The translations under genes and the position numbers were made by a program. Of a stretch of 64,000 bases of DNA, positions 15,860-53,310 are shown in pieces (position 1 is the stretch's first letter; each line of letters starts with the position of its first letter). The stretch spans positions 1 to 64,000 of the forward strand of contig CALSOP010000008.1 in assembly GCA_943788005.1 (NCBI GenBank). Direction: 5' to 3'. Below the pieces are notes generated by a model. It saw nothing but the letters and a program-made list of their open reading frames with translations. It did no database searches and was not told the origin of the DNA. Source of the stretch: an uncultured Gammaproteobacteria bacterium (lineage in GTDB: Bacteria; Pseudomonadota; Gammaproteobacteria; Eutrophobiales; Eutrophobiaceae).

Positions 15860-15877
15860 ATCAAAGAATTATCTAAT

Positions 15878-18508: not shown

Positions 18509-18557
18509 TATTTCGCATCCAGTTTTGACAAGCTAAACGAAACTTGTCTGACAATTA

Positions 18558-19304: not shown

Positions 19305-19378
19305 GATAAATGATGTTTTAAATTAATAATGCCGCTCTTATAAACCAGTTAGTAATCTATGACAAGTGAGTGTAACAA

Positions 19379-22041: not shown

Positions 22042-22167
22042 TTCTATTTTTTTGACAACTCACAGCGATGTTAAATTAGGGTTCGCAGGGATAAACATTA
22101 AAATGTTTGTCACTATTCTCTTTTCCCTCATTCTAATCAGTGTTTGTTATGCAATGCGCTGATATCT

Positions 22168-23223
22168 TCAGAGTTTCTCATGAATGTCTGCCATAGGCAA
22201 ACGGCGTCCACTGAATCGGAAAAGGGCATTTAAAGCCCAATCATTACCAACAAAAAGGCTGGTGAAAAATATTGTCGCTTTGACGCTTCGACGGCTTATC
22301 TTCACTTCTTGGCCAGTCGTGAAATCAGGCTTTTGCCGGATCTTTTCCAGCGTCAATACAGCCATTCCCAAAGCCCATAAACAAAATCGACGCAGACCCT
22401 TTTCATTAGCAGGTATTTTAAGGGTATAAAGTAAGGCATTTTGAATATGAGCGTGTGCAACGCCAAGCAATTCAATCAAGGCCTCATCAAACCCGGCTTC
22501 ATTTTTGCCAAGTACCTTATGGCGTATATCGACGCCATATTTATTGAAAACATCACGTGGTAGCCAGCAGGCCCCACGCTCATGATCTTCCCAAATATCT
22601 TTCAATATATTAGTCATCTGTAATCCCTGACCAAATGACACGCCCAATTGCATCATTTCTTCTCGCTGGGCATCAATTTCAGGGGAATAGTCACAGAATA
22701 GTTCGGTCAACATTTCGCCGACAACTCCGGCAACGTAATAACAATATTGCCCCATGTCTTTCAGGTCGGCCATTCCATCAAGTGTTTCTGCATCTTGATA
22801 ACGAACCATGCCTTCGGCCATGATAGAGACACATCTTTCGAGTGCTGCTCGCTGGCGTTCATTAAAACTGTGGGTGATTCGTATTACGGGAGCGGTATTG
22901 GCAATAAGATCGTGTTCTGCCTCAGTGGCGGTCGGGGATAATAAAGGAAACAGTCCATCAGCAAAGGTTTCAGCGCCATCGGTGCCTTTAACTACGGCAA
23001 TGAATTGCTCAGCATATTCACGCTTCAGGGCTGCCGTCATCAATTTATCATCTTCAATCGTATCGGCTATACGGCACAAGAGATAGGCATTGCCCACTAC
23101 CTCACAAAGTGATTCCGGTAATTGCGGAATGGTCAGCGCAAAAGTACGGGACACGTGCTGCAATATCTCATTTTGATAAGCAACATCATCCAAAGGGGTC
23201 TTAAAATCGTTCTTAGATTTCAT
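22168..23223 (-). CDS. Squalene synthase (farnesyl-diphosphate farnesyltransferase)
   Basis: A 351-residue all-helical prenyl-condensing enzyme that joins two farnesyl diphosphates to squalene through presqualene diphosphate, using NADPH. Two aspartate-rich motifs are visible: RIADTIEDD and MTNILKDIWED, and VSRTFALTIPQLP matches the N-terminal substrate flap. It resembles the single-enzyme (ERG9-like) type, not the three-gene HpnC-HpnD-HpnE route of many hopanoid producers; a partner for HpnC or HpnE is not seen nearby. A flexible C-terminal end replaces the membrane anchor found in eukaryotic enzymes. It is the first gene of the hopanoid operon. Confidence 0.93.
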   Translation of the reverse strand: MKSKNDFKTPLDDVAYQNEILQHVSRTFALTIPQLPESLCEVVGNAYLLCRIADTIEDDKLMTAALKREYAEQFIAVVKGTDGAETFADGLFPLLSPTATEAEHDLIANTAPVIRITHSFNERQRAALERCVSIMAEGMVRYQDAETLDGMADLKDMGQYCYYVAGVVGEMLTELFCDYSPEIDAQREEMMQLGVSFGQGLQMTNILKDIWEDHERGACWLPRDVFNKYGVDIRHKVLGKNEAGFDEALIELLGVAHAHIQNALLYTLKIPANEKGLRRFCLWALGMAVLTLEKIRQKPDFTTGQEVKISRRSVKATIFFTSLFVGNDWALNALFRFSGRRLPMADIHEKL

Positions 23224-23524: not shown

Positions 23525-25204
23525 GTGAGTTCAGTTACTGACATTATCGCGTCTACAGCCAAGATTGATGCTGACGATCAATCCGACCTGTGTTTTTGGC
23601 AAACGGACAAGAATAGTAAGCAGCAAGAATTAAAGACGTTACCAAAACAACTTCGTTGCCTCAATGTGCCTTTTTCGCTAGTTGCTGATCATTCTGATGT
23701 GAAAATAGGTTTGGGCGGTTCAATTAACTTTAATGCTGTCGCTGGTAATGAGGGTAGTTACAAGCATCTTGCATTTGTTCCGCAACAAACGATTCGCGCA
23801 TTAGGCGATAAACAATTTTGTCAGGATTACCAAATTAAATATCCGTATATGACAGGTGCAATGGCTAATGGCATTGCATCCGTAGAGTTAGTTGAAGCGA
23901 TAGGCAATGCAGATATGTTAGCGTCATTTGGCGCAGCTGGTTTGTCATTGCAAGAAGTAGAGAAGGCAATTCAACGGCTAAAAGAATCATTACCTAATAA
24001 AACCTATTGTTTTAATCTGATCTACAGCCCCAATGAAAAAGGGCATGAAGATGCAATCGTTGACCTGTATCTTCGCTATGGTATTGATCTAGTTGAAACC
24101 TCTGCCTATATGAAACTCACTTTACCGGTTGTCCGCTATCGCGTGAAAGGCATCTATAAAGATACTCAGGGTAATATTGTTGTACCAAATCGGATCATCG
24201 CTAAAGCATCTAGAGTTGAGTTGGCGAGTAAATGGTTTAGTCCACCGCCTGAAAAATTATTGAATGAATTATTAGCTCAAGGCGCAATTACTAATGAAGA
24301 AGCTGAGCTAGCTAAAACAATTCCAATGGCACAAGACCTGACTGTTGAAGCTGATTCAGGTGGGCACACAGATAACCGGCCAGCAATAACCTTGTTGCCG
24401 ACGATGCTGGCATTACGTGATCAGTATCAGGAAAAATATAATTATCGTCATTCATTGCGAGTCGGCGCGGCAGGCGGAATTGCAACGCCAGCATCTGCAC
24501 TAGGTGCTTTTGCGATGGGTGCGGCTTATATTGTTACAGGCACGGTAAATCAAGCCTGTAAAGAATCAGGATCATCCGATATTGTCAGGGAGATGTTAGC
24601 TAACACCGGGCAAGCGGATGTCACGATGGCACCGGCTGTTGATATGTTTGAGATGGGTGTGAAGTTACAAGTATTAAAACGCGGTTCTATGTTTGCCATG
24701 CGCGGTAATAAACTATATGACCTTTATAAAAAATACGCATCGATTGATGAGATACCTGCTGTCGATAGAGCCAATTTAGAAAAAACAATTTTTAAGATGT
24801 CTTTAGAGGACGTTTGGCAGAAGACCTATGATTTTTTTAGTGAACGCGACCCTTCTCAAGTAGAAAAAGCAAAGAATGATCCGAAACATAAAATGGCTTT
24901 AATCTTTCGTTGGTATCTAGGTCTTTCTTCACGCTGGGCCAATGCCGGTGTTGAAGACCGTCAAGTCGATTATCAAGTCTGGTGTGGACCAGCCATGGGT
25001 GCCTTCAATGAATGGACACGTGATACGTTTTTGGCAAAAACGGATCGCCGTGATGCGGTAACGGTTGCTATGAACATTATGTTTGGTGCGGCAGTCTTAA
25101 GTCGTGCGAATGGAATTTTAAAACAAGGTGTAGAGGTGCCGGGTGTATTAATCCAGTTCCAACCGATGCAACTTGAAGCAATAGAAAAATATCTAACTGA
25201 GTAA
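23525..25204 (+). CDS. pfaD: PfaD-like trans-acting enoyl reductase of a PUFA-synthase-type system
   Basis: A 559-residue FMN-dependent enoyl reductase of the PfaD family (nitropropane-dioxygenase-like TIM barrel), which saturates selected double bonds for the megasynthase. Visible signatures are YPYMTGAMANGIASVELVEA, the flavin-site VEADSGGHTDNRPA, and GAAGGIATPASALGAFAMG. A C-terminal helical domain (DYQVWCGPAMGAFNEW) is typical of PfaD. Length matches. The start is GTG at 23525 giving MSSVTDIIAS. Placing the reductase first (D-A-C order) resembles myxobacterial pfa1-pfa2-pfa3 clusters, whereas Shewanella-type clusters have pfaD last. Confidence 0.93.
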   Translation: MSSVTDIIASTAKIDADDQSDLCFWQTDKNSKQQELKTLPKQLRCLNVPFSLVADHSDVKIGLGGSINFNAVAGNEGSYKHLAFVPQQTIRALGDKQFCQDYQIKYPYMTGAMANGIASVELVEAIGNADMLASFGAAGLSLQEVEKAIQRLKESLPNKTYCFNLIYSPNEKGHEDAIVDLYLRYGIDLVETSAYMKLTLPVVRYRVKGIYKDTQGNIVVPNRIIAKASRVELASKWFSPPPEKLLNELLAQGAITNEEAELAKTIPMAQDLTVEADSGGHTDNRPAITLLPTMLALRDQYQEKYNYRHSLRVGAAGGIATPASALGAFAMGAAYIVTGTVNQACKESGSSDIVREMLANTGQADVTMAPAVDMFEMGVKLQVLKRGSMFAMRGNKLYDLYKKYASIDEIPAVDRANLEKTIFKMSLEDVWQKTYDFFSERDPSQVEKAKNDPKHKMALIFRWYLGLSSRWANAGVEDRQVDYQVWCGPAMGAFNEWTRDTFLAKTDRRDAVTVAMNIMFGAAVLSRANGILKQGVEVPGVLIQFQPMQLEAIEKYLTE

Positions 25205-25209
25205 AAGTA

Positions 25210-25374
25210 ATGTCTAAAGTAAATAATAAGTTTGGTGCCACTAAAAATAGTGATTTTTGCGTGAGTGCAAGAAAGAATCGCACGGACGACTGCATGGATG
25301 CAGGAGGTAGAGCAATGCCGGGAGCAATTGCCGAGAACAACGGGAAAAGTGCATTTTTAGGGGTGGCAAAATGA
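25210..25374 (+). CDS. Small ORF (54 aa) bridging pfaD and pfaA
   Basis: An open frame of 54 codons starts six bases after the pfaD stop and ends with a TGA that overlaps the pfaA ATG (ATGA). This arrangement is what translational coupling would look like. The peptide is basic and Asn/Ala/Gly-rich without membrane segments or a known motif, and its second half is made from the dispersed repeat at 25290-25350. No good ribosome binding site is visible. It could be a real leader/coupling peptide or only a chance frame through the repeat. Confidence 0.35.
   Translation: MSKVNNKFGATKNSDFCVSARKNRTDDCMDAGGRAMPGAIAENNGKSAFLGVAK
25290..25350 (+). repeat. Dispersed repeat element with hairpin, copy A
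   Basis: Shares CATGGATGCAGG, GGTAGA and CGGGA with the reverse complement of 61390-61442. It contains the hairpin GCAAT...ATTGC with a 10-base loop; the other copy has ACAAC...GTTGT, so two of five pairs differ but pairing is kept. It lies just before pfaA and its GGAGGTAGAG resembles a ribosome binding site. Confidence 0.65.
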
Positions 25375-28300
25375 AACCACTAGCGATTGTTGGCATAGGT
25401 TGTCTCTTCCCTAAAGCAAATAACGTTGAAGAATATTGGGCCAATATCCGAGAAGGCGTTGATGCAATTACAGATATTCCAGAAACACATTGGAAGCCAT
25501 CGGATTATTTTGACGAAGACAAGTCAGCTCCAGACATGACTTACGGTAAACGTGGTGGTTTTATAAATCCAATGAATTTCAATCCACTGTTATACGGATT
25601 AAGTCCGAATAACATTGAAGCGACAGACACAACTCAGTTGCTTGGTATGATGGTTGCGCGACAAGCTCTGTTGGATGCAGGTTACTCAACCGGTAAAGAT
25701 GCGGGCGATGGTCGTGAATTCGATCGTGATCGTATGAGTGTCATTCTCGGTATTACAGGTACTTTAGAATTAGTCATCCCATTAGGCGCAAGACTCGGTC
25801 ACCCTATCTGGCGTAAAGCACTTGCTGATGCTGGCATTGATCCAGAAACAACCGAAGATGTTGTCCAACGAATCGCTGACGGTTATGTGCCTTGGCAAGA
25901 AAACTCATTTCCGGGTTTATTAGGTAATGTTGCTGCAGGACGCATTGCAAACCGTTTTGATCTTGGTGGTACCAACTGTGTTGTTGATGCTGCTTGTGCG
26001 AGTTCGTTAAGCGCAGTCCATCTCGCGGCATTAGAACTTAGTGCTGGTCGTGTAGACATGGCCATAACCGGCGGCATGGATACCTTCAACGATATCTTTA
26101 TGTATATGTGTTTTAGTAAAACACCTGCTTTATCACCAACGGGTAACAGTCGTCCTTTTGCAAAGGAAGGTGATGGTACGATACTTGGTGAAGGATTGGG
26201 TGCCGTTATTTTGAAACGATTAGAAGATGCTGAACGAGATGGCGATAAAGTCTATGCTGTTTTAAAAGGTATGGGTTCCTCTTCTGATGGCAAGGGTAAC
26301 GCGATCTATGCACCCAGTGCAGAAGGCCAAACCAAAGCCCTTTGGAATGCGTATCGCGAAGCAGATGTCACGCCAAGAAGTATAGAGCTAGTCGAAGCAC
26401 ATGGCACCGGTACATCTGTTGGTGATGCAGTGGAAGCCAAGGCCTTGTCTGGTGTTTATAGTCAGGATAATGAAGACGAAACATGGTGTGCTGTCGGTTC
26501 AGTAAAATCGATGATAGGCCATACAAAAGCAGCAGCAGGTGTCGCGGGTCTAATAAAGACGGCTATGGCATTAAAATATAAAGTCTTACCGCCCAGTATT
26601 AAGGTTGATGAACCATTAGAGATTATCAATCCCGGAACGGCGCCGATTTATCTAAATTCAGTTAAGCGCCCCTGGTTAAAAACACTTTGCACACCACGGC
26701 GTGCTGCATTAAGTGCTTTTGGTTTTGGTGGTAGTAATTTTCACTGCGTACTGGAAGAGGCAGAAGAAACAAAAACAGAGATTGAATGGGACGGCCAAGT
26801 ATTAATTATTGCTCTCAGTGCTGATTCAAAAACGGATTTAATAAACCAATTACCTGATGCTGCCCTATTAGCATCAGAAGAGGAGCTTCGGTTTTTTGCT
26901 TATGATTCATGTCAGTCATTTAAAGTAGATGCCGAACATCGTTTGACGATAGTGCTCGATAAAGCGAATGCGGAATTAGAAAAGTTAATAGAAGATGTTA
27001 AGCAACAGCTTAACGATTCATCTGAGTCAATATGGCAAAAACCAAACGGAGCGATGTATAGCTCTGGGAAAGAAGCGAATAAGATTGCTTTTATCTTTCC
27101 CGGGCAAGGTTCTCAATACGTGGGGATGTGTCGTGACCTCGCTTGTCAGTTTCCGCAGTTCTCCACGGCACTTGAAGAAGCAAATCAACTCTTTATTGAA
27201 GCGACAGGCAAACAAAGTCTGGCAGATGTCTTATATCCTATCCCTGTCTTTTCAAAGACTGATGAAAAGGAGCAAGAGAATACATTACGTCAAACTCAAA
27301 ACGCACAACCAGCTATCGGTGCTGTAAGTATCGGTGTATTAAATCTATTAAACCATTTTGCTGTTGAACCAATGGCAGCAATTGGTCATAGCTATGGTGA
27401 GTTAACCGCGCTATCTGCAGCAGGCGTTTACACTACAGAAACCTTATACCGTTTATCACGAATCCGTGGTGAATTAATGGCGGCGGGCGAGGGTGATCGT
27501 GGTTCTATGTTAGCGGTGGTTGCAGACTACGAACAAGTTGAATCATTACTCAAAGAAAATAATATCGAGTTGATTATTGCCAATCATAATTCACCAACGC
27601 AGGTTGTGCTTTCTGGTGCGACGGATCAAATCGATAACTTTGCCAAAATTGCAAAAAAAGAAAAAATACGTGCAATTAAACTGCCTGTTGCTGCTGCATT
27701 CCATAGCCCATTTGTTGCTAATGCAGCAAAACCTTTCAGTGAGTCTTTAGCACCATTTGAATTTTCTACGAATAAATATCAGGTGCTTTCAAATACGACT
27801 ACAGATTCTTACCCAACAGAGGCTGATGCAGCGAAGCAGCAACTAGCGAACCAACTAGCATCGCCAGTTAGATTTGTTGAGCAAATTGAAAAATTGTATG
27901 CGGAAGGTTTTAACACCTTTATTGAAGTCGGACCTGGCAAGACATTAACGGGTCTGGTTGGTGCAATTCTGGCGGATAAAGAGTTTACCGCTATTGCGAT
28001 AGATGCTTCTGTAGGTAAGAAACAAGGACAATATGATTTAGCATTGGCATTGACCCGTCTCGCAACACAGGGAATTAATGTGGATCTAGCAAAATGGGAT
28101 GCACGTTGCTCAGAACTTGAAAGACCAGCGAAAGATGCAAAGCCTGCGATGACAGTTTCGATCAGTGGTGCCAATGTCATGTTGCCACGTGAAGCCCGGC
28201 CACCAAGTAAACCCAAGAAGAATATTATTAATATGACGAATGAAGTAATACAAACACCACAAGTTTCAATTGCGCAAACGCCACAGCATAGCAGCGGTCT

Positions 28301-31300
28301 GTTACAGGCAACAAAAGAAAGTATTCTTGCCTTGCAAAAGATGCAGGAACAAACAGCACGGTTACATCAACAATATCTTGAAGGACAAGAGACCGCCCAA
28401 AAATCTATTCAGTCATTATTGGAACAACAACAACGACTCATGTCTGGCCAGCCATTGGCGCCAGCAAGTCAGCAAGCGCCACAACAACAAGTCAAGTTGA
28501 ACGTGCCTGCTCAAGAAAACACAGTTGCCTCAGGAGTAATTGAAAAACCAATCGTTAAAGAGATTGAAGAAACCAAGCAAGCAGTCACAACAAATGTTGA
28601 ACAATCCGACGTCGATATAAATAATCTTTTGCTTAATGTAGTATCTGAAAAAACGGGTTACCCACTAGAAATGTTAAGTCTCGATATGAGTCTGGATACG
28701 GATCTGGGTATCGATTCAATCAAGCGTGTTGAGATACTCTCAGCGTTGCAAGAAAAATTACCATGGTCTGCTGCAGTTAATCCAGAAGAATTAGGGACCT
28801 TCCAATTCTTACAACATATTGTTGAATTTATAGTCGCAGGTAGACCCGCTGCTGATAAAGCAGCAAGCACAACGATAACAACTGTAACGAAACCAATTGC
28901 AACAGTAGATAATAATTTTGAGAGGGTTTTGCTCGAGATTGTGTCAGAAAAAACCGGCTATCCTATTGAAATGTTGGATCTTGATATGAATCTGGATAGT
29001 GACCTAGGCATCGACTCAATCAAACGCGTTGAAATTCTCTCTGCCTTGCAAGAAGCTATGCCAGAGCTTCCTCTAGTCAGTCCGGATGAGCTTGGGCAAC
29101 TTCAAACCTTACGTTCGATCACTGAATTATTTGCTGTAGAGTTGACAGGCTCAAGTCAAGCAGCACCGCAGATAAGTGAACCAGCACAAGCAAATGTGAT
29201 CACTGGTTTTGCAGAAACATTATTAGAAGTTGTGGCAGATAAAACAGGTTATCCGACGGACATGCTAAGTCTAGACATGAATCTGGATAGTGACTTGGGT
29301 ATTGATTCAATCAAGCGAGTAGAAATATTGTCTGCCATTCAGGAACGTATTCCTGAATTACCTTCTGTAAGTCCGGATGACATGGCCGCGTTGCAAACAC
29401 TGCAATCAATTGTTGATGTGTTTAATGTTGCTGAAGTTGTTTCAACGAGTGAACCGCAGCAAGCGGTTTCAGGGCTATCAGCAATATTGCTTGAAGTTGT
29501 CGCAGATAAGACCGGCTATCCAGCAGAAATGCTAAATTTAGAAATGCATCTCGACAGTGACTTGGGTATCGATTCAATTAAGCGAGTCGAAATTTTATCG
29601 GCACTGCAAGACAAAATGCCAAATCTTCCAGTCGTCGCCGCAGATGATTTGGCAGCACTACAAACGCTGCAACAAATCATTGAGTATATGATCGAGCAGA
29701 TGGCTGACTCAATTTCAGCTCATGCGCCGGAAGCTAATATTGTAACTAAAGCGCGTGAAGTCGAAAAAGAATCCAGGCTTATTCGTAGTGTTGTTCGTAT
29801 TAATAAAATCGAAGAGGCAGACCAGCGCAATGCCATTGCCTTCAATAAAGATAAAGAAATATGGATAACGAAAGAAGGTGGTCAATTAGCGGAACAATTG
29901 GCAGAGAATTTAAATGCTAATGGTTATATAGCTCAAATTGTGGCTAATAATAAAAAACCAAATGACAATCTTGGAGCCTTGGTTTTATGTGCTAACGATA
30001 ATCCTAATAAGCAATGGTTATTGGATGCCTTTAGCCTGATGCAGTCATGTAGTGCTGCACTTAAAAAGTCGAAAGGAATTCTGGCGTCAGTGACTACTCT
30101 GGGAGGCAGTTTTGGCTTTGACGGAGAGTTAAAAGGTGAGCCAATTCAGGCCGGACTTTATGGCCTCATTAAAACGGCAGATAAGGAATGGTTTGACGTT
30201 TCAGTTAAATCAATTGATGTCGATCTTGATTCAGTATCAGTAGACTCTTTAAAAGAAGAACTCTTTTATGAAGGGCCATTAGAAGTGGGATTACTTAATG
30301 GACAAGTCATGTCTATGTCATTAGAAGATGAAGCATTAGAGTCAGAAAAAACTGAACACATACTACTCAATCAAGAAGATTTAATTGTGATTTCTGGCGG
30401 TGCGCGTGGAGTGACCGCTGAAGTCGCTCTTAAAATAGCGGAGTCTTATAGATGTAATCTGTTGTTGCTTGGACGTAGCCCAGAACCAGAATCAGAACCT
30501 CAATGGTTAACTGCGCTAACAGACGCAGCAAGCATTAAAAAAGCAATCCTTGATAATGCAAAAGAAAAACTCAAACCCGCTGACCTGGAAAAACGCTATC
30601 AATTAATATTGGCGAATCGTGAGATAAACAATTCATTACAACGAATCGAAAAAATCGGCGCAAAGGTTCAATATGCGTCGGTCGATGTTAACAATGCTGA
30701 TGCCGTTGCCAATGTGATCGATATGGCGCGAATAGAGTTAGGTAACGTGACAGGTATTATTCATGCTGCAGGCATCCTTGCCGACCGTTTAATCGAAGAC
30801 AAAACAGTAGCACAGTTCGACGCTGTTTATTCCACCAAGGTAGACGGATTGAAAAGCTTGCTCTCAGCAACTCGAGATGATGAATTGAAGTTGATAGTAT
30901 TATTTTCTTCAACTACTGCACGATTGGGACGTAAGGGTCAGGTTGACTATGCGGCTGCTAATGAAATATTAAATAAAATTGCGCAATCTGAAAATCAAAG
31001 CAGAAAGGACTGCAAGGTTTTGTCGGTGAACTGGGGTCCATGGGATGGTGGCATGGTAACGCCGGCATTAAAAAGACTATTCGCAGAAGAGGGCGTCGGT
31101 GTCATTGGTTTAAATGCGGGTGCAGATTATTTGATACAAGAAATAGAATCAGCAGGTCCCGTCGAAACGGTTATCCTCGGTGAATCAGATAATATACTAG
31201 CGACTATACCCTTAAATAAGTCATTACCTTTGACAGACCGTGGTGATTTGGCAATAGCATTCGAGCGTGATCTTTCTGTAAGCTCTAATGACTTTCTCAA

Positions 31301-32093: not shown

Positions 32094-32126
32094 TTAATAA
32101 TTTATTTCTTTGAATCTTTAAATGTA

Positions 32127-36587: not shown

Positions 36588-38739
36588 CTTGAGTGCTAGC
36601 GGCAGCGTCATAACAGAACATGATGTCTTGCCTAACGCTTGGTACTTAGACTTAGGTCGCATACCAACCTGTATCGCTGTGGAAGCGGGACAAGCCGATT
36701 TATTTTTATCAGGCTATCTCGGTATTGACCACGTAACGAAAGGTTTCGCGGTTTATCGCTTACTCGATGCACGTATAACCTTTCATGGCCCTTTACCAAC
36801 AGCAGGACAAACAATTCATTACGATATCCATATCGAACATTTTTTTAGTCAGGGCGACACGCGCTTATTCCGTTTCAATTTTGAAGGGACGGTCAATGGG
36901 AAACCACTACTCACCATGACACATGGTTGTGCTGGCTTCTTTACTCAACAAGAGCTCGATGCAGGCCAAGGTATTGTGCTGACTAGTATGGAGAAACAAC
37001 AAGCACAAGGTAGGTTCACTGATGACTGGCACCAGCTAGTCCCGCTGCAAGTAGAAAGTTATAACGATGCACAGTTGAATGCTTTACGTAATGGCGATCT
37101 TATTAGCTGTTTCGGAGAAGACTTTGCTAACAGAGGTTTAAATAATCCTGTCGGCTTACCTAGCGGTCGTATGACATTGGTACATCGCATACTTAAGCTG
37201 GATCCCAATGGTGGTCGATTTGGTATCGGTCAGATAACCGGCGAAGCTGATATTCGTCGAGACGATTGGTTCTTAACCTGTCACTTTGTTGATGATCGGG
37301 TTATGCCCGGTACCTTAATGTACGAATGTTGTTTACATACCTTGCGTGTATATTTGTTACGCATGGGTTGGATTGGTGAAACGGATGAGTTTGTTTATGA
37401 ACCGATTATCGGTGAAGTCAGCCAATTAAAATGTCGGGGTCAGGTCACTGAAGAAACCAAAGCAGTTCAATATGAGATCACGCTGAAAGAAATTGGCTAT
37501 AAAGCAGATGGTACACCTTATGTCTTGGCCGAAGCATTAATGTACGGCGATCATCGTGCCATCGTGCAGATGAAAAATATGTCGGTACAGCTTAGTGGGT
37601 TAAAACGTGAACGGCTGCAAACACTCTGGGCCAATCAAACAACAACAAAAAAAGTCTTGTTTAATAATGAATCAATACTCGCCTTTGCCGTAGGTAAACC
37701 TTCAGAGGCATTTGGTGACCCCTATAAGGTCTTTGATAGTGAACGTAAGATCGCACGTCTACCTGGGCCTCCGTATAAATTTCTCGATCGGATTACCTCA
37801 ATCAAAGATTGTGAGCAATGGGTGTTAAAAGCGGGAGGTATTATTGAGGCTGAATATGATGTGCCGATCGATGAATGGTATTTTACTGAAGACAATCAGC
37901 CTTATATGCCGTTTGCTGTCTTACTGGAAGTCGCTTTACAACCCTGTGGTTGGTTAGCTGCTTATCTGGGGTCTGCCTTAACTAGCGAAACGGATATTTC
38001 ATTTAGAAATCTGGGTGGTAAGGCGACTCAATTTATTAAAGTCTCGCCAGAGATTGGTACCTTGAGCACAAAAGTAAAAATTACTAACGTATCGCAATCA
38101 GGCGGCATGATTATCCAGAATTTTGATTACGAAATGCATTCAAATCTGGGTATGGTCTACAAAGGTAATACTTACTTTGGCTTCTTCTCGCACGATGCCT
38201 TGGCGGAACAGGTCGGGATTCGAGATGCTGAACCCTATAAGGCAAACAGGAAAGAGCTTGCCAGTGGTAAATCGTTTGCCTATCCCTCCGAAGCACCGAT
38301 GCCAGCAGATATGATGCGCATGGTTGATGAAATAACCCTATATGATCCTGATGGTGGGCCTAATGGCTTGGGATTTATCGAAGGGATAGCGAATGTGAAG
38401 CAAGAGGCCTGGTTCTTTAAAGCACATTTCTTTGAAGATCCGGTCTGGCCGGGTTCATTGGGGCTCGAATCATTCATGCAATTGCTAAAGGTATTCGCTT
38501 GGGAGCGTTGGCAGGATGAGCTGGAAATAGGGCAATTCGCCTTCGAAAGTATGGCCCTGAATCAACTGCATGAATGGGTATACCGAGGCCAGATATTGCC
38601 TGTCGATGATAAAGTCACGGTTCAGGCGGTGATAACCGAGGTTGATGATCAGAGCAGAATCCTTAAAGCGGATGGATTTTTGACCGTAGATGGCAGAATT
38701 ATCTATCAGATGAAAGATTTTGCGCTCCGAATCACTTAG
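36580..38739 (+). CDS. pfaC: PfaC-like subunit, C-terminal part (two FabA-type dehydratase units)
   Basis: A 719-residue protein that continues the dehydratase domain broken at the end of the preceding gene: it starts with VITEHDVLPNAWYLD and AGQADLFLSGYLGID, which follow MLVDRI in intact PfaC proteins. Two double hot-dog units are present; catalytic His/Asp segments are CHFVDDRVMPGTLMYE (about residue 230-245) and AHFFEDPVWPGSLGLE (about 610-625). These dehydratases/isomerases place the double bonds in PUFA synthases. The ATG at 36580 overlaps the previous stop; GGTGAA lies about 14 bases before. Deleting one base near 36584 would fuse the two frames, so this is either a frameshift or a genuine gene split. 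Confidence 0.9.
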   Translation: MHDLSASGSVITEHDVLPNAWYLDLGRIPTCIAVEAGQADLFLSGYLGIDHVTKGFAVYRLLDARITFHGPLPTAGQTIHYDIHIEHFFSQGDTRLFRFNFEGTVNGKPLLTMTHGCAGFFTQQELDAGQGIVLTSMEKQQAQGRFTDDWHQLVPLQVESYNDAQLNALRNGDLISCFGEDFANRGLNNPVGLPSGRMTLVHRILKLDPNGGRFGIGQITGEADIRRDDWFLTCHFVDDRVMPGTLMYECCLHTLRVYLLRMGWIGETDEFVYEPIIGEVSQLKCRGQVTEETKAVQYEITLKEIGYKADGTPYVLAEALMYGDHRAIVQMKNMSVQLSGLKRERLQTLWANQTTTKKVLFNNESILAFAVGKPSEAFGDPYKVFDSERKIARLPGPPYKFLDRITSIKDCEQWVLKAGGIIEAEYDVPIDEWYFTEDNQPYMPFAVLLEVALQPCGWLAAYLGSALTSETDISFRNLGGKATQFIKVSPEIGTLSTKVKITNVSQSGGMIIQNFDYEMHSNLGMVYKGNTYFGFFSHDALAEQVGIRDAEPYKANRKELASGKSFAYPSEAPMPADMMRMVDEITLYDPDGGPNGLGFIEGIANVKQEAWFFKAHFFEDPVWPGSLGLESFMQLLKVFAWERWQDELEIGQFAFESMALNQLHEWVYRGQILPVDDKVTVQAVITEVDDQSRILKADGFLTVDGRIIYQMKDFALRIT

Positions 38740-38781
38740 AATATGAGCTCGAATATTGCATAAGAACAGCAATTATCACAA

Positions 38782-38997
38782 ATGACTCTTAATATGAATT
38801 TACGAAACGATTATTCCAATGATCGACTATTAGTCGGCGAATGCTTATACCGAAGCTCGCTGGTTCAGCTATCCGCTCTGCGCACATGCTTCCTCACAGG
38901 TATGAATAACTACCTGTTCAGTCGCGAGCACGCAGATCGAATAGCTGTCCTGTGCGACCGTTCGGCATTCTTATGCAATATGCGAGCTGTCCTATGA
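38782..38997 (+). CDS. Small ORF (71 aa) ending in the oleA start
   Basis: A 71-codon frame fills the gap between the dehydratase gene and oleA; its TGA overlaps the oleA ATG at 38994 as ATGA. The peptide is Leu/Arg/Cys-containing (five cysteines or fewer) with no membrane segment or family I recognise. The DNA holds a 7-bp inverted repeat ACAGGTA/TACCTGT at 38896-38917 and AGCTGTCCT twice. It may be a coupling peptide, or a chance frame over a structured leader. Confidence 0.3.
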   Translation: MTLNMNLRNDYSNDRLLVGECLYRSSLVQLSALRTCFLTGMNNYLFSREHADRIAVLCDRSAFLCNMRAVL

Positions 38998-40193
38998 AAT
39001 ATTCACGCGTACATATGGAATCCATTGGCTATGAACTGCCCCCGGTCGCCATTACTTCCGAGGACCTCGAACAGCGGCTAATGCCTATGTATGACGCACT
39101 ACATATAGCACCTGGGCAGTTAGAGGCCTTGACGGGTATTCATGAACGGCGCTGGTGGGAAGAAGGCCATATATTGTCTGATGGTGCTGCGAATGCGGCT
39201 CGAAAGGCACTAGAACAGTCAAATGTCGAAGCAAAAGACGTTGAAGCACTGGTTTATACAGGTGTTTGCCGAGAAAATTTCGAACCTGCAACTGCTTGTG
39301 CTGTAGCAGCTCAATTGGGTATCAGTGATGATGCCAATATCTATGATATTTCTAATGCCTGTTTGGGAGTTATGAACGGCATTATTGATATCGCCAATCG
39401 CATCGAATTAAAGCAGATCCGTGCCGGTATGGTCGTATCGTGCGAGACCTCACGCGAAATCGTTGAGATTATGATCGAGCGCATGCTGAAAGATAAAACG
39501 ATTGATATGTTTTCCAGTTCACTGGCGACTCTAACGGGTGGTTCGGGGGCAGCTGCAGTATTACTGACGGATGGTTCGTTTGATAATAAAGAAACTCATC
39601 GCTTGTTGGGTGGTGCGAATCAATCTGCACCGGAGCATCACAAACTTTGTCGTTGGGGCGTTTCAATATCACCAGTAGCAATCGGGGAATTTGTTTTTTC
39701 TCCTGATAAATTATTGGCAGCGATTGATCAAGTGATGGAGCCCGAAGTTATTCCATCAGTTCTTAAAGAAGTGATGTCGAGTGATAAATTACCACCTGCT
39801 TTATCGAGCATGTTGCCCAAAGAAAAATTACCGGCAGCCTTGTCTGAATTCATGTCGACCGATTCTGTTTCAGTTTTAAAACATGGTGCCATCTTGGGTG
39901 TTAAAACATGGGGGTCGTTTTTGGGGAAAATGGGTTGGGCCAGAGATCAGGTTGATAAAGTGATTTGTCATCAGGTCGGCGAAGGCCATCGTGATACAAT
40001 CTTAAGAGAGCTTGGTATCGCGCCTGAAAAAGATTTTAGTACCTATAAATATCTAGGTAATATTGGGACTGTCTCTGTGCCCTTAACAGCAGCAATTGCT
40101 GATCAAAGGCAGTTCTTAAAGAAGGGTGATCGTGTTAGTTTTCTAGGCATAGGCAGTGGCTTAAATTGTCTGATGCTTGGTTGGGAATGGTAA
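38994..40193 (+). CDS. oleA: OleA-like thiolase (acyl-CoA head-to-head condensing enzyme)
   Basis: A 399-residue thiolase-superfamily protein resembling OleA, which condenses two acyl-CoA chains head to head to a beta-keto acid, the first step of long-chain olefin synthesis. Active-site Cys is in SNACLGVMNG, the conserved Glu in CRENFEPATAC, His in ICHQVGEGH and Asn in YLGNIGTVSVPL. I use ATG 38994 (KYSRVHMESIGYELPP), which matches the family N-terminus; a start at 38952 would add 14 residues. At about residues 232-290 there is a helical insertion of roughly 50 residues before TDSVSVLKHG that I do not know from typical OleA, with imperfect repeats around DKLPPALS and EKLPAALS. Confidence 0.93.
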   Translation: MKYSRVHMESIGYELPPVAITSEDLEQRLMPMYDALHIAPGQLEALTGIHERRWWEEGHILSDGAANAARKALEQSNVEAKDVEALVYTGVCRENFEPATACAVAAQLGISDDANIYDISNACLGVMNGIIDIANRIELKQIRAGMVVSCETSREIVEIMIERMLKDKTIDMFSSSLATLTGGSGAAAVLLTDGSFDNKETHRLLGGANQSAPEHHKLCRWGVSISPVAIGEFVFSPDKLLAAIDQVMEPEVIPSVLKEVMSSDKLPPALSSMLPKEKLPAALSEFMSTDSVSVLKHGAILGVKTWGSFLGKMGWARDQVDKVICHQVGEGHRDTILRELGIAPEKDFSTYKYLGNIGTVSVPLTAAIADQRQFLKKGDRVSFLGIGSGLNCLMLGWEW

Positions 40194-40216
40194 AAACTTA
40201 AATTTCATAAAGTTGT

Positions 40217-40390
40217 ATGAAAAAAAATAAAGACAAGCTTTCTTTTCCTGACCCAGCGACATTTAAAATAGAAACGCCACAGGTTAGTTTTGAGGAGATC
40301 ACAGCTCTTTCTGAAAAGATGTTGCCGTTTGAGAATAAAAAGAGAAAAAAATCTAGCGCTACATCATTCACACCTTTTGTACTCGACTAA
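40217..40390 (+). CDS. Small basic protein (57 aa) between oleA and dinB
   Basis: An ATG-started frame of 57 codons, 23 bases after oleA. The peptide is rich in Lys (KKNKDK at the start, NKKRKKSS near the end), soluble, and has a central FEEITALSEKMLPFE helix. No family is recognised. It lies in the only 234-base gap between oleA and dinB, on the operon strand, and the reading frame covers most of that gap, which is why I list it. Confidence 0.45.
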   Translation: MKKNKDKLSFPDPATFKIETPQVSFEEITALSEKMLPFENKKRKKSSATSFTPFVLD

Positions 40391-40427
40391 TACTTTAAAA
40401 CACCAGTTTTTGTATTCTAAATAATAA

Positions 40428-41534
40428 GTGAATACGGAAGACCCCGAAGAAAATCCAGTTCAACGTAAAATCATCCATGTCGATATGGATGCCTTCTATG
40501 CTTCAGTCGAACAGCGTGACAACCCTGAATATCGTGGCAAGCCTGTCGTTGTTGGTGGCACACCGGAGCAACGCGGTGTTGTTGCTGCTTGTAGCTATGA
40601 GGCACGGAAGTTTGGTATACACTCAGCAATGTCGGCCACGCAAGCACATCAACGCTGTCCTCAGGCTATTTTTCTAAAGCCACGTTTTACTGCGTATCGT
40701 GAAGTCTCTGAAGAAATTCAGGCTGTGTTCCGCCAGTTTACAGATTTGGTCGAGCCCTTATCTTTGGACGAAGCTTATTTGGATGTCACGCATAATCAGG
40801 ATTATTCAGGTTCAGCAACCTTAATCGCAAAAGAGATCAAACGTTTAATTAAAGAGAAAACTGATCTCAATGCCTCTGCTGGTGTGTCATACAATAAATT
40901 TTTAGCGAAGATAGCCTCGGATATGGATAAACCAGATGGTTTATATTTAATCACACCTGAACAAGGCCCCGAGTTTATCAAGACATTACCAGTACGACAG
41001 TTTCATGGCATTGGTAAAGCAACCGAGAAACGAATGAAAGAATTTGGCATTCATACCGGTGAAGATCTTTTACAGAGAGACCTGAATGAACTCGTCAAAA
41101 AATTCGGCAAGGCAGGTCATTTTTATTATTCAATTTCACGTGGCATCGACCATCGACCGGTGAACAACCAACGGATAAGAAAATCCGTAGGTAAGGAAAC
41201 AACGTTTAGTAAAGATATGGGCGACATAAATGAGATGTTTTCTATTCTGGAGGAACTATCCAGTAGTGTCTCGAGAATATTGTTTGGTAAAAATTTATCC
41301 GCACAGACTATAACCTTAAAAGTTAAATATGCAGACTTTGAGCAAATCACACGCAGCCGCACGATTGAAAAGCCGACATTATCTGCGAGTAATATTTTCG
41401 AAACTGTAAAAGATCTATTAACAAACACAGAAGTAGGCAAACGCAAAGTTCGTCTATTAGGAGTGAGTACGTCCAAGCTGCAGGAAAAGGGCGATGACCA
41501 AAGGAATAAAACGGAGCAGATGGATTTACTTTAG
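40428..41534 (+). CDS. dinB: DNA polymerase IV (Y-family)
   Basis: A 368-residue translesion polymerase. The catalytic residues are visible in IHVDMDAFYASVEQ and LSLDEAYLDVT; a helix-hairpin-helix segment (VRQFHGIGKATEKRMKEFGI) and a little-finger domain follow. Start is GTG 40428; no close ribosome binding site. It is out of place: it lies inside the ole gene set, between oleA and oleB, on the same strand, so it may be transcribed with the lipid operon. A LexA box is not evident in the upstream 200 bases. It could have its own promoter. Confidence 0.95.
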   Translation: MNTEDPEENPVQRKIIHVDMDAFYASVEQRDNPEYRGKPVVVGGTPEQRGVVAACSYEARKFGIHSAMSATQAHQRCPQAIFLKPRFTAYREVSEEIQAVFRQFTDLVEPLSLDEAYLDVTHNQDYSGSATLIAKEIKRLIKEKTDLNASAGVSYNKFLAKIASDMDKPDGLYLITPEQGPEFIKTLPVRQFHGIGKATEKRMKEFGIHTGEDLLQRDLNELVKKFGKAGHFYYSISRGIDHRPVNNQRIRKSVGKETTFSKDMGDINEMFSILEELSSSVSRILFGKNLSAQTITLKVKYADFEQITRSRTIEKPTLSASNIFETVKDLLTNTEVGKRKVRLLGVSTSKLQEKGDDQRNKTEQMDLL

Positions 41535-41634
41535 ACTCTACTAATAAATTCGCCGTATAAACTTGGTGTATAAGGTGTTTTTCAGTAAACTAGCTCGCTT
41601 TATAACTATATTTTCACATAAAAACCAATAGCTT

Positions 41635-42531
41635 ATGCAATACCCCGATTACTCCTCAGAGTCTTCCTGTTATGCTTCAATAAATAACAGACAAATGCAT
41701 TATCTCGAAGGTGGGAAGGGAAATGCTGAAACTATAGTCATGATTCATGGTAATCCGAGCTGGTCTTTTTATTATCGGCATCTATTTACTGCACTCAGTG
41801 AGAAATATCATTGCATCGTACCAGACCACATTGGCATGGGGTTATCGGATAAACCAGCTGACGGTGAATATGATTTTACATTACAGCAACGAGTTGATGA
41901 CCTCGATACGCTTTTATCTTCATTGGGGCTTGATAATAATCTAACACTAATTGTGCATGATTGGGGCGGCATGATTGGTATGGCCTATGCCACACGCTAC
42001 CCAGAAAAAATTAAACGTCTGGTAATATCGAATACGGCTGGGTTTCATATTCCATCCGGAAAAAAAATTCCCTGGCAATTAAAGCTAAGCCGTACCCCGT
42101 TAATTGGTGCGTTATTAATACAAGGCTTAAATGCATTTTGTCGAGGAGGTGTCATACAGTGTGTTACACGTAAACCGATGACGAGTGATATTAAGAATGC
42201 CTACTTAGCGCCGTATGATAATTGGTCAAACCGACTTTCGGTGCTACGCTTTGTAGAAGATATCCCGCTAGATAAAAACCACATTTCTTATGACGTTGTA
42301 GATAATGTCGATAAAAATCTAGACCAGTTTTCAAAGCTGCCAATGTTGGTTTGTTGGGGATTGAATGATTTTGTGTTTGACCGACATTACCTTGATGAAT
42401 GGAAGAAGCGTATGCCAAATGCTGAATATCATGAGTTTGATGCGGGACATTATTTACTTGAAGATGCGGGCGAGGAAGTGATCCCTTTGATTCAAGCTTT
42501 TCTAGAAAAGACAAACCCAGGTCAGACATAA
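41635..42531 (+). CDS. oleB: OleB beta-lactone decarboxylase (haloalkane-dehalogenase-like)
   Basis: A 298-residue alpha/beta hydrolase. The nucleophilic Asp lies in LIVHDWGGMIG, the oxyanion region in MIHGNPSWSFYYRHL, and the histidine in AGHYLLED. OleB proteins resemble haloalkane dehalogenases and decarboxylate the cis-beta-lactone made by OleC to release the olefin. It is the gene directly before oleC, with 18 bases between them. Homology alone could mean a dehalogenase, but the oleA, oleC, oleD context makes OleB much more likely. Confidence 0.92.
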   Translation: MQYPDYSSESSCYASINNRQMHYLEGGKGNAETIVMIHGNPSWSFYYRHLFTALSEKYHCIVPDHIGMGLSDKPADGEYDFTLQQRVDDLDTLLSSLGLDNNLTLIVHDWGGMIGMAYATRYPEKIKRLVISNTAGFHIPSGKKIPWQLKLSRTPLIGALLIQGLNAFCRGGVIQCVTRKPMTSDIKNAYLAPYDNWSNRLSVLRFVEDIPLDKNHISYDVVDNVDKNLDQFSKLPMLVCWGLNDFVFDRHYLDEWKKRMPNAEYHEFDAGHYLLEDAGEEVIPLIQAFLEKTNPGQT

Positions 42532-42549
42532 GTTTGATCTCTGTCTGTA

Positions 42550-44214
42550 ATGATTACTGCAAACATAGCCTCTCATTTACCAGTTATGGCACAACAGCAG
42601 CCAGACACCCATGCTGTGGTTGTCCAGTCAACAGGCACTCGTGAAAAGTCTGAGTCGACTCTTTATAAAAATTCATACACTTACAAGGAACTCGATGAAG
42701 TTAGTAACGTTATTGCTAATGGATTAAAAATCCATGGCATCAGTAAAGGTACGCGGACAGTTTTAATGGTTAAGCCGGGGCTTGATTTCTTTGCTCTGGT
42801 ATTTGCCTTATTCAAGCTTGAGGCTGTGCTTGTCGCTGTCGATCCAGGTATGGGGATAAAAAATCTGGGCAAGTGTTTAACAGAGGCTGAACCAGAAGCG
42901 TTTATTGGCATCAGAAGCGCACATCTTGCACGACTCACCTTAGGCTGGGCAAAAAAGACAATTAGTAAAACGGTACTAGTAGGTAATAACCTTTTATTAG
43001 GCAGTTTTATAACTAGTCTGGAACAGATAAAAGCAAGCGCAAAAGATAAACATTTTCAAGATACTAAAACTGTTGCAGCAAATATGGCTGCAATTCTGTT
43101 TACGAGTGGTAGCACGGGTATTCCAAAAGGCGTTGTCTATACGCATGCTAATTTTACCGCGCAGCATGAGGCATTGAAGAAGCTTTACGATATTCAGCTG
43201 GGTGAGATAGATTTAGCGACATTCCCATTGTTTGCTTTATTTGCCCCAGCATTAGGCATGACGTCTGTGATACCAAAGATGGATTTTACGCGACCAGGTC
43301 ATGTCAATCCAAAAACTATTATTACTGCGGTTAATGACTATAAATGTACAACCATGTTTGGTTCACCGGCCTTATTAAATCGTGTTGGGAAATGGGGCGA
43401 AGCGAACGCGAGTAAATTACGCACTCTAAAACGGGTGCTGTCAGCGGGTGCTCCAGTCGCACCTTCCGTACTTAAGAGATTTAAATCATTACTTAATGAT
43501 GATGTGCAAATATTCACACCCTATGGTGCAACAGAATCACTTCCTGTTAGTTCTGTTGGCAGTGATGTTATTTTGAATGAGACTGCTATAGCGACAGTTG
43601 AAGGCAAGGGTGTCTGTGTCGGCAGTCCTGTTCCCAATCTGGATATTAGGATTATTAAAATCACTGACGAAGCTATATCTACTTGGAAGGATGATTTAGA
43701 GTTGCCTGCTTATAAAATTGGTGAAATTTGTGTCAGAGGCCCACAGGTTACTCAATCTTATTTCAATCGCGATAATGCAACGCGATTGGCTAAAATACAG
43801 ACTGACAATGGTTTTTACCATCGTATGGGTGATGTTGGCTACAGTGATGATAATGGAAGAATATGGTTTTGTGGACGTAAGAGCCAGCGTGTCATTACAG
43901 AAAATGAAACCTTATTTACTATATGTTGTGAGGGTATTTTTAATAAGCACGCTTCCGTATTTCGAACAGCATTGGTTGGCGCTAGACATGAAGATAAAAT
44001 TATCCCCGTTATTTGTGTTGAATTAGAACCTGAAAATAAAATTGTGGATAAAAACAAACTGACTGAAGAATTATTTGAGTTAGCTAGCCACCATTCCCTG
44101 ACAAAAAATATAAAGCATATTTTATTTCATTCTGGTTTCCCTGTAGACATTAGACACAATGCCAAGATTGGTCGCGAGAAGTTAGCGATATGGGCTGAGG
44201 GGAAATTAGTATGA
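42550..44214 (+). CDS. oleC: OleC beta-lactone synthetase (AMP-ligase family)
   Basis: A 554-residue ANL-superfamily enzyme. The P-loop-like motif FTSGSTGIPKGVVYTH is clear, together with TPYGATESLPVSS and the hinge segment YHRMGDVGYSDDNGRIWFCGR. OleC adenylates a beta-hydroxy acid and closes it to a beta-lactone. Its stop overlaps the oleD start by four bases (ATGA). The protein resembles fatty-acid CoA ligases, so only context separates it from them; adjacency to oleB and oleD is decisive. Confidence 0.93.
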   Translation: MITANIASHLPVMAQQQPDTHAVVVQSTGTREKSESTLYKNSYTYKELDEVSNVIANGLKIHGISKGTRTVLMVKPGLDFFALVFALFKLEAVLVAVDPGMGIKNLGKCLTEAEPEAFIGIRSAHLARLTLGWAKKTISKTVLVGNNLLLGSFITSLEQIKASAKDKHFQDTKTVAANMAAILFTSGSTGIPKGVVYTHANFTAQHEALKKLYDIQLGEIDLATFPLFALFAPALGMTSVIPKMDFTRPGHVNPKTIITAVNDYKCTTMFGSPALLNRVGKWGEANASKLRTLKRVLSAGAPVAPSVLKRFKSLLNDDVQIFTPYGATESLPVSSVGSDVILNETAIATVEGKGVCVGSPVPNLDIRIIKITDEAISTWKDDLELPAYKIGEICVRGPQVTQSYFNRDNATRLAKIQTDNGFYHRMGDVGYSDDNGRIWFCGRKSQRVITENETLFTICCEGIFNKHASVFRTALVGARHEDKIIPVICVELEPENKIVDKNKLTEELFELASHHSLTKNIKHILFHSGFPVDIRHNAKIGREKLAIWAEGKLV

Positions 44215-45203
44215 AGGCCTTAGTGACAGGTGGTGGTGGGTTTCTCGGTGGCGCAATAGTCAGGGCCTTATTGAAAAGGGGTGATACTGTTAGGTCAATT
44301 CAGCGAGGACACTATCCCGATCTTTTAGAATTAGGTGTTGATGCGATACAAGGAGATCTATGTAAGGCTGATGATATAGATGCTGCAGCGAGTGGCTGCG
44401 ATATTATTTATCATGTTGCAGCTATGGCTGGCGTATGGGGTGATTATGATAAGTATTATCTGGCCAATGTGGTAGCAACAAAAAATGTCATCGATGCGTG
44501 TAAAAAACATAATATTAATTATTTGGTTTATACCAGTACCCCAAGTGTGGTGTTTGATGGAACTAGCGAAGAGGGTATTGATGAATCAACACCTTATGCA
44601 GAAACATTTTTCAATGCATACCAGGAAACCAAGGCAGAAGCAGAGCAACTAGTATTAATTTCGAATAGCGAAAAACTTAAAACAGTTGCCTTGCGACCGC
44701 ATTTAATCTGGGGGCCGGGTGATAGACACCTTGCACCACGTGTCATTAATCGTGCAAAGGCCGGCCGGTTAAGACTGGTTGGGAATAAAGAAAATAAAGT
44801 CGATTCATGCTATATCGACAATGCTGTTGATGCGCATCTACTTGCCGGAGATGATTTACAGAAAAATGCAAGATGTGCGGGCAAAGCCTATTTCATTAGT
44901 AATGATGAGCCCATCTCGATGTCAGATTTAATTAATAAAATATTGGCAACTGTAAATCTATCGCCGATAAAGAAAAGAATTAATGAGTCTGTGGCTTATT
45001 ATATAGGTTCGATATTTGAACGAGTCTATTCTCTATTCAAGATCGAGGAAGAGCCTCTAATGACGCGATTTGTTGCTAAACAATTATCCACAGCACACTG
45101 GTTCGATCTAACAGCGGCTAAGCGAGATTTATCCTTCACACCAGAAATCAGTATTGATGAGGGCATGAAACGTCTTAAGGCATCATTTGATACTGAAAAA
45201 TAA
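44211..45203 (+). CDS. oleD: OleD 2-alkyl-3-ketoacid reductase (SDR family)
   Basis: A 330-residue extended short-chain dehydrogenase. Rossmann motif ALVTGGGGFLGGAIV, catalytic serine region YTSTPSVVFDG and Tyr-x-x-x-Lys pair YQETKAEAE are visible. OleD reduces the OleA product to the beta-hydroxy acid using NADPH. It is translationally coupled with oleC. The C-terminal stretch contains a helical membrane-near segment (ESVAYYIGSIFERVYSLF) typical of this family. OleBCD are known to form large assemblies, consistent with their adjacent genes. Confidence 0.94.
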   Translation: MKALVTGGGGFLGGAIVRALLKRGDTVRSIQRGHYPDLLELGVDAIQGDLCKADDIDAAASGCDIIYHVAAMAGVWGDYDKYYLANVVATKNVIDACKKHNINYLVYTSTPSVVFDGTSEEGIDESTPYAETFFNAYQETKAEAEQLVLISNSEKLKTVALRPHLIWGPGDRHLAPRVINRAKAGRLRLVGNKENKVDSCYIDNAVDAHLLAGDDLQKNARCAGKAYFISNDEPISMSDLINKILATVNLSPIKKRINESVAYYIGSIFERVYSLFKIEEEPLMTRFVAKQLSTAHWFDLTAAKRDLSFTPEISIDEGMKRLKASFDTEK

Positions 45204-45205
45204 TA

Positions 45206-45928
45206 ATGAATACTCTTGAGCAGATATCACAAGAAAGACTAGTACTGTCAGATAATACAATTCATGTCTATTTAATTAAATTCGATTTATTTGATAATAA
45301 ACAATGCATTCAGTATTTATCAGAAGATGAACGTATTCGAGCAGAAAAATTAAAAATAGAAGAAAAAAAGAATCAGTTTGTTATAACGCGAAGCGTGTTA
45401 AGACTATTGTTATCTAGTGCTATTGCCAAGTCATATCAAGATATTGAATTCTTATATGGAGAACATGGAAAGCCGATCATTAATGAATATTTAAATAATA
45501 AACCAGTAGAATTTAATATTTCTCATTCAGGAAATTATGCCCTGATAGCAATTACCTTGAGTAATAAAGTAGGAGTTGATATAGAAGGGGTAAATATTGC
45601 TATAGATCATCAATCACTATCAAAGCGGTTTTTCAGCAAAGACGAAAAAAATGAGTTAATAAATTTAGTTGATGAAGTGCAACTCGATACCTTCTATCGT
45701 ATTTGGGCTAGGAAGGAGTCCTTTATCAAGGCAACTGGTAAGGGTGTTGCATATGGTCTTGACCAATTTTCTGTCACATTAGATGAGACTATTGATGGAG
45801 GGACAGAAGTATTAACTTTCAACCCATTGGATGATAAATGGTTTTGTTACGATCTTATTAATATAGATAATTATAAAACAGCATTGACAACGACGAACAA
45901 GACTTGCGATATTGTTATTCATGCATAA
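45206..45928 (+). CDS. Sfp-type 4'-phosphopantetheinyl transferase
   Basis: A 240-residue enzyme that moves phosphopantetheine from CoA to ACP serines. Family sites are KVGVDIEGVN (Mg-binding Asp and Glu), FSKDEKNELI, and WARKESFIKATGKG. It starts two bases after oleD and is the last gene of the operon, so its likely clients are the four ACPs of the PfaA-like protein. In other organisms PfaE does this job. Confidence 0.95.
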   Translation: MNTLEQISQERLVLSDNTIHVYLIKFDLFDNKQCIQYLSEDERIRAEKLKIEEKKNQFVITRSVLRLLLSSAIAKSYQDIEFLYGEHGKPIINEYLNNKPVEFNISHSGNYALIAITLSNKVGVDIEGVNIAIDHQSLSKRFFSKDEKNELINLVDEVQLDTFYRIWARKESFIKATGKGVAYGLDQFSVTLDETIDGGTEVLTFNPLDDKWFCYDLINIDNYKTALTTTNKTCDIVIHA

Positions 45929-51006: not shown

Positions 51007-51012
51007 CTGTTT

Positions 51013-53279: not shown

Positions 53280-53310
53280 TGCTAACTAATACTCCGAATT
53301 AATAATCTTG

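Follow-up and report, generated by a model that had tools for sequence, protein, structure and literature searches.

A pfa-ole gene cluster of the Geobacter bemidjiensis kind, with a variant OleA, in an uncultured gammaproteobacterial order

When genes for a polyunsaturated fatty acid (PUFA)-type synthase and genes for olefin biosynthesis lie together on one strand, do they serve a single pathway, and is such a pairing new? The question is raised by positions 23,525 to 45,928 of a 64,000-nucleotide stretch of DNA (contig CALSOP010000008.1 of assembly GCA_943788005.1, positions 1 to 64,000, hereafter the window) from an uncultured gammaproteobacterium of the family Eutrophobiaceae, order Eutrophobiales. 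Here pfaD, pfaA and pfaC are followed by oleA, oleB, oleC, oleD and a gene for an Sfp-type phosphopantetheinyl transferase (PPTase). An earlier note, made from the window's letters, had proposed that the synthase feeds OleA directly and that the physical link marks an undescribed system. The cluster is real. By analogy with published work it is probably a pfa-ole cluster of the Geobacter bemidjiensis kind, in which Pfa would supply polyene chains to OleA and OleBCD would finish a C31:9-type hydrocarbon. The claim to novelty fails because the tandem has already been published for G. bemidjiensis (Yoshida 2016, PMC4882568), and the linkage appears in two further papers as well.

Gene content and an interrupted pfaC

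All genes from pfaD to the PPTase, with pfaC in two frames and dinB interposed, lie on the plus strand in one stretch (Table 1), which is the tandem order of a G. bemidjiensis-type linked cluster. Two marks of a Pfa-type synthase are present, a PfaA domain set scoring above its curated cut-off and a PfaD enoyl reductase. PfaA contains four PP-binding stretches by Pfam, and its motifs are DAACAS in the ketosynthase (KS), GHSYG in the MAT domain, and LGIDSIK in each of four acyl carrier protein (ACP) domains. On the olefin side, OleA scores well above its family cut-off and has the Cys, His, Asn and Glu expected of the family: E97, C123, H326 and N356 are invariant in 23 sequences. The cysteine is the catalytic residue, and we take the other three to be catalytic as well. 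The catalytic residue of Shewanella pealeana OleA is likewise C123 (Allemann 2019, PMC6463001). OleB, OleC and OleD accompany OleA; OleB is assigned by fold family and position, and OleC and OleD fall below the strict Shewanella/Xanthomonas equivalog cut-offs (Table 1).

Table 1. Features of the pfa-ole locus and its surroundings in the window
Feature	Position	Strand	Basis
Hopanoid block 1: hpnA, hpnN, PhyH-like, hpnG-like (just below cut-off), squalene-hopene cyclase, squalene-synthase family	14873..23223	-	context, outside pathway
pfaD, enoyl reductase of PUFA-type synthase	23525..25204	+	TIGR02814 641 bits, cut-off 449
pfaA, KS-MAT-ACPx4-KR-DH	25371..32093	+	TIGR02813 1692 bits, cut-off 1010; Pfam domains
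pfaC first part, KS-CLF-AT, frame ending inside first FabA-like domain	32127..36587	+	domain profiles, motifs
pfaC second part, FabA-like dehydratases (DH2)	36580..38739	+	PF07977 261 bits, 3 stretches
Imperfect-palindrome element between pfaC and oleA, 21-base inverted ends	38746..38993	.	fold, comparison
oleA, head-to-head condensing thiolase, 399 aa, catalytic Cys123	38994..40193	+	PRK09258 478 bits, cut-off 285
OleA insertion, ~64 residues (223-286 of 399), 13-residue repeats	39660..39851	+	alignment to solved chains
57-aa ORF ahead of dinB	40217..40390	+	copies in relatives
dinB, DNA polymerase IV	40428..41534	+	PRK02406 479 bits, cut-off 256
oleB-like beta-lactone decarboxylase, haloalkane-dehalogenase family	41635..42531	+	alpha/beta hydrolase fold family and position
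oleC, beta-lactone synthetase	42550..44214	+	PRK09274 731 bits, cut-off 478; OlefBLtnSynShew 671 bits, cut-off 850
oleD, 2-alkyl-3-oxoalkanoate reductase	44211..45203	+	NF042423 478 bits, cut-off 580
Sfp-type PPTase (pfaE role)	45206..45928	+	PF01648, PF22624
Hopanoid block 2: CDP-alcohol transferase, YdjC/HpnK-like, hpnJ, hpnI	50401..54531	-	context, outside pathway

The gene families, the strand and the overall order given in the earlier note stand, and four of its details need correction: the integrity of pfaC, the start of oleA, the contiguity of oleA and oleB, and the uniformly short spacing. The open reading frame (ORF) listed for oleA begins at 38952, and relatives start 42 bases later, at 38994; the N-terminal extension of the ORF lies in the palindromic element. 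The arrangement of oleA and oleB as consecutive genes is ruled out by dinB between them. Intergenic gaps along the cluster measure 166, 33, 254, 234, 100, 18 and 2 bases, the gap of 254 being the palindromic one ahead of oleA, and an ATGA overlap occurs at oleC/oleD only, which contradicts a description of short gaps or ATGA overlaps throughout. Between 36500 and 46600, promoter sites detected by scanning were fewer than in shuffled sequence (18 versus 28.5), and terminators stayed at about shuffle level (7 versus 6.3).

The KS-CLF and FabA-like dehydratase (DH) domains of PfaC are all present in the window, split over two frames that overlap by 8 bases, the second encoding 722 aa. As read from the sequence, the CLF lacks the active-site cysteine. 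An acyltransferase (AT)-like region resembling PfaB lies inside pfaC and carries a GYSLG motif; its scores are below the cut-offs (99 versus 144 bits; Pfam 21.6 versus 32.7). Of the 27 relatives that have DH2, 19 carry pfaC as a single frame of 2186-2310 aa, and the shorter frames of the remaining eight reach a contig end by coordinate arithmetic. A pfaC made of two genes by design is ruled out by this single frame in relatives. The junction of the frames falls within the dehydratase domain, where five aligned relatives stay in frame.

The break is a candidate assembly error or a candidate lesion of this strain. If pfaC were truly broken, the pathway would be dead or altered here and would yield a saturated hydrocarbon or none, an outcome we hold to be improbable. 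The break does interrupt a FabA-like domain and is seen in none of the 19 relatives with a complete, intact pfaC, and indel errors do not pervade the assembly, since ORF coverage looks normal in the long stretches sampled elsewhere in this genome (0.63-0.93 for ORFs of at least 250 aa; 0.76-0.91 in relatives). Set against these points, every other gene of the cluster has an open frame, and a second fragmented stretch occurs in the same genome, for which local errors are a simple explanation. This second stretch (positions 14000-24000 of the genome's own contig C6, locus L032) holds plsX, fabH, fabD and fabF in pieces, with an ORF coverage of 0.19, unlike the full-length FabH frames of relatives; local errors and real decay are both candidate causes there.

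Conservation of the pfaC-oleA junction and the predicted product

The earlier note had suggested a genome survey for conserved pfa-ole adjacency, and this check bears it out. Across a sample of 53 genomes of the order, OleA scores over its cut-off in 28, belonging to eight genera; exactly these 28 also have OleC and the DH2 part of pfaC. A PfaD match was obtained in 29 genomes (27 over cut-off, two partial), and PfaD accompanies OleA in 27 of them; one genome has OleA without PfaD (G023) and two have PfaD without OleA (G020, G026). In every one of the 28 OleA-bearing genomes, pfaC lies directly upstream of oleA on the same strand, 5-257 bases away from match edge to match edge, and in 25 the distance is 5-28 bases. 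So close a junction is consistent with OleA being co-expressed with the synthase. In 25 of the 28, oleC shares a contig with oleA and lies no more than 9.6 kb from it; G049, G024 and G027 have oleC on a different contig, the last two with oleA near a contig end. The position of pfaA next to oleA is less tightly held than that of pfaC: the distance from pfaA to DH2, a measure that spans the N-terminal part of pfaC as well, comes to 4.5-4.8 kb (adjacent) in ten genomes and 6.5-8 kb in three, and pfaA was not found in two of the OleA-bearing genomes of the order.

A second set, from public genomes, comprises 23 loci with OleA; several of these are the same genomes as in the order sample, and the two sets of counts are thus not independent. 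Beyond the order, the sequence pfaC-oleA-oleB-oleC-oleD-PPTase is kept in a member of the Planctomycetota (L022), and pfaC-oleA-oleB-oleC-oleD, with no PPTase detected, in a member of the Desulfobacterales (L023). A sample of 274 genomes taken across the class, with the family among them, is thin and uninformative on Shewanella-type clusters; OleA passes in five of its genomes and PfaD in 16, and outside the family OleA passes in two and PfaD in 13, with none having both. In 14 control genomes neither the OleA nor the PfaA model passes its cut-off. In favor of an artefact of assembly or sampling, the relatives in the public set are all metagenome bins by their titles; set against this, the same junction recurs in all 28 OleA-bearing genomes, in eight genera and in two other phyla. 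An origin of the adjacency by chance or assembly is ruled out by the 28/28 survey, and we give an artefact of any kind next to no credence.

Linked clusters of this type have been described before. Yoshida 2016 (PMC4882568) describes for G. bemidjiensis, which makes C31:9, a tandem of pfaD, A, B, C, oleA, B, C, D and pfaE. The gene order of this Bem cluster (Type I of Shulse & Allen), whose host makes hentriacontanonaene, is essentially the one found here. Yoshida 2016 lists pfaB and pfaC separately; in the window the AT lies inside pfaC. The window differs in its gammaproteobacterial order, dinB between oleA and oleB, the palindromic element before oleA and the hopanoid genes on both sides, with the OleA insertion as a candidate further difference. 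In Photobacterium profundum SS9 the pfa and ole operons are also neighbours, with pfaT between them (Allemann 2019, PMC6463001). Shewanella oneidensis and S. pealeana have the same enzyme set and the same OleA Cys123, but a separate PfaB and an OleA of 38 kDa, compared with an AT inside PfaC, a PPTase at the cluster end and a 399-aa OleA with an insertion here. In the Type D cluster of A. marina the AT likewise lies within PfaC, after the second KS and ahead of the DH domains, and myxobacterial (Aetherobacter) clusters carry the AT in pfa3 and pfaD as the first gene, as here; the accessible descriptions of Type D and myxobacterial clusters have them making PUFA and describe no pfa-ole tandem. 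Further sources were PMC3098273 and PMC7064751.

By this analogy a biosynthetic route can be proposed. The PPTase would activate the four ACPs of PfaA, and PfaA, PfaC and PfaD would build an all-cis polyene chain, 16:4 n-3 if the published case applies. OleA would then join two of these chains by head-to-head condensation, probably receiving them directly from the ACPs; OleD would reduce the resulting beta-keto acid, OleC would close the beta-lactone and OleB would decarboxylate it. The predicted product is a polyene hydrocarbon with a very long chain, of the type of hentriacontanonaene (C31:9). What these genomes show directly is the gene content, the domains with their catalytic motifs, the adjacency and the co-occurrence; we infer the substrate, the direct ACP hand-off and the product from published Shewanella and Geobacter work. 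According to Allemann 2019 (PMC6463001), in-cell evidence indicates that OleA takes Pfa chains without an acyl-CoA synthetase, and OleA together with Pfa yields a 31:8 ketone in Escherichia coli lacking fadD. The proposal of the earlier note that Pfa chains pass through OleA to a polyene hydrocarbon has good support in the gene content, in the conserved adjacency and in the published Shewanella work.

Alternatively, the two gene sets could make separate products, with Pfa forming PUFA for phospholipids, OleABCD fusing fatty acids of the type II system, and adjacency serving only co-regulation. The AT-like region of pfaC with its GYSLG motif might serve to transfer a fatty acid or to release it, some genomes have pfaA at a distance from pfaC-ole, and P. 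profundum SS9 makes eicosapentaenoic acid (EPA) and no hydrocarbon despite adjacent operons (PMC6463001); we nevertheless judge this arrangement unlikely, given the 5-28 bases between pfaC and oleA in 25 of 28 genomes, the single genome (G023) with OleA but no PfaD, and the statement in the introduction of Allemann 2019 (PMC6463001) that in marine species making EPA or docosahexaenoic acid (DHA), OleA condenses the Pfa-synthase chain exclusively.

Several observations weigh against a shared hydrocarbon pathway at this locus. First, pfaC is not a single open frame in this assembly. Second, linkage is incomplete in some relatives: oleC of G049 is not on the oleA contig, L018 has no oleBCD within 10 kb after oleA, and pfaA is apart from pfaC-ole in three genomes (by 16 kb in G039, by 45 kb in G050 and by 34 kb in G003, where the strand is also opposite) and on another contig in ten, some of these being contig-end cases. 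Third, the PfaD model is over its cut-off in one of the 14 control genomes, Bacillus subtilis, and PfaD alone is therefore not a marker of a PUFA synthase. Fourth, no pfaT is linked to pfa or ole, as it is in the pfaT-linked marine clusters; the sole PF13279 match in this 85.5%-complete genome is on another contig, between ruvB and tolQ, and is presumably a YbgC-like housekeeping gene. Finally, SS9 has no detectable hydrocarbon with its adjacent operons, so that the presence of the genes does not guarantee the product (PMC6463001). Taken together, we regard the locus as a real, conserved polyene-hydrocarbon cluster of a published kind, probably functional, in a lineage that the available text of the cited papers does not name.

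A lineage-specific OleA and insertions around it

The OleA of the window differs from the two solved OleA chains aligned with it by an insertion of about 64 residues. It breaks the alignment to the best solved chains, 3s21 and 3row, between residues 229 and 233 of 3s21; we take both chains to be Xanthomonas campestris OleA. The insertion is present in 21 of 21 full-length OleA sequences of at least 76% identity (the window plus L001-L020, with the truncated L021 excluded). It is absent from the OleA of L022 and L023, although these are pfa-linked. In the survey of the order all 27 complete OleA matches span 1197 bases, compared with 1014 for the two OleA outside the family. Self-comparison of the insertion peaks at a lag of 13 residues (1.04, with 0.57 at lag 26), and none of 2000 column shuffles attained this peak value at a lag between 5 and 29. 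The repeats are degenerate and specific to this lineage among the sequences compared. A search of PDB sequences with the insertion alone returned no match at E<=10, and a plasmid search with OleA gave 29 records, all below 60% identity, one of them covering most of the query.

One public locus stands apart in its oleA. The gene in L003 (10004-11200) has a third-codon-position similarity of 0.75 to the window allele, and its neighbors DH2 and dinB have 0.51 and 0.49; this pattern suggests either that oleA by itself was exchanged between lineages or that the bin is chimeric. The isolate prefix OFTM is common to L001, L003 and L005.

Both sides of oleA carry lineage-specific insertions that probably lie outside the pathway, the palindromic element and dinB. 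The interval 38740-38996 folds at -82.6 kcal/mol (z -4.8), and the ends of the element match in inverted orientation at 95% over 21 bases. The element is found at the same site only in G043 (85%, a close genome) and G046 (86%, more distant) and is missing there in the other 25 OleA-bearing relatives; this genome holds one copy, with a short core at four other places. An Rfam search with the element gave no match, and a mobile palindrome and a regulatory RNA are candidate alternatives.

Downstream, dinB lies within 0.9 kb of oleA in nine of the 23 public OleA loci and not in 13, L021 being cut, and this restricted occurrence marks it as a lineage insertion that is probably outside the pathway. 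It is the sole match over the DNA polymerase IV cut-off in the assembly, with one other match below. Copies of the 57-aa ORF precede dinB in L007, L008 and L011 (77%, 77% and 46% identity). Because inserts were also found after oleA in L001, L008 and L011, this region appears to be an insertion hot spot. Those of L008 (2400-3234) and L011 (11200-12003) are presumably nucleotidyltransferase-like ORFs between oleA and dinB, and that of L001 (12420-14440), after dinB, seems to carry small ORFs of toxin-antitoxin type. In L009 (11200-19800) a 2045-aa protein and a second gene lie between oleA and oleB, which we take to be a macroglobulin-like protein and a penicillin-binding-protein-1C-like gene.

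Hopanoid flanks and significance

The cluster is flanked on both sides by hopanoid genes on the minus strand (Table 1). The upstream block adjoins pfaD in ten of 16 relatives fetched, comprising nine of nine in the genus (two more of the genus were left out) and one of seven outside it, among which G010 has only 5.6 kb to its contig end. The downstream block follows the ole genes in seven of 14, that is seven of nine within the genus, where G049 lacks it and G046 is cut by a contig end, and none of five outside. The hopanoid-flanked layout is thus kept in the genus and mostly not outside. Open-licence literature yielded no text pairing hopanoid with oleABCD, nor squalene-hopene cyclase with PUFA synthase. 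Within the upstream block, a conserved gene (18558-19304) encodes a PhyH-family dioxygenase whose closest NCBIfam model is methylphosphonate hydroxylase, below cut-off; a hopanoid-modifying oxygenase is a possible role for it.

The apparent novelty is more modest and consists of the OleA insertion and the hopanoid flanks. We tentatively speculate, with low confidence, that the insertion is a docking or lid module that would tie OleA to the Pfa synthase (PfaC or the ACPs) and commit chains to hydrocarbon over phospholipid, and that with the hopanoid genes the locus would be one unit for two kinds of non-phospholipid membrane lipid. Docking is a guess, and beside it stand the pfa-linked OleA proteins of L022 and L023, which have no insertion.

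The pfa-ole linkage as a system is already published, and the OleA variant is worth testing. With this locus the range of a known hydrocarbon pathway grows to include an uncultured order of gammaproteobacteria, 28 of whose 53 sampled genomes carry OleA, and its condensing enzyme has a form that is absent from the solved OleA chains in the alignment. The position between hopanoid genes suggests that two classes of membrane lipid may be linked. If it is true that the insertion governs hand-off, how OleA draws chains from the Pfa synthase would become directly testable.

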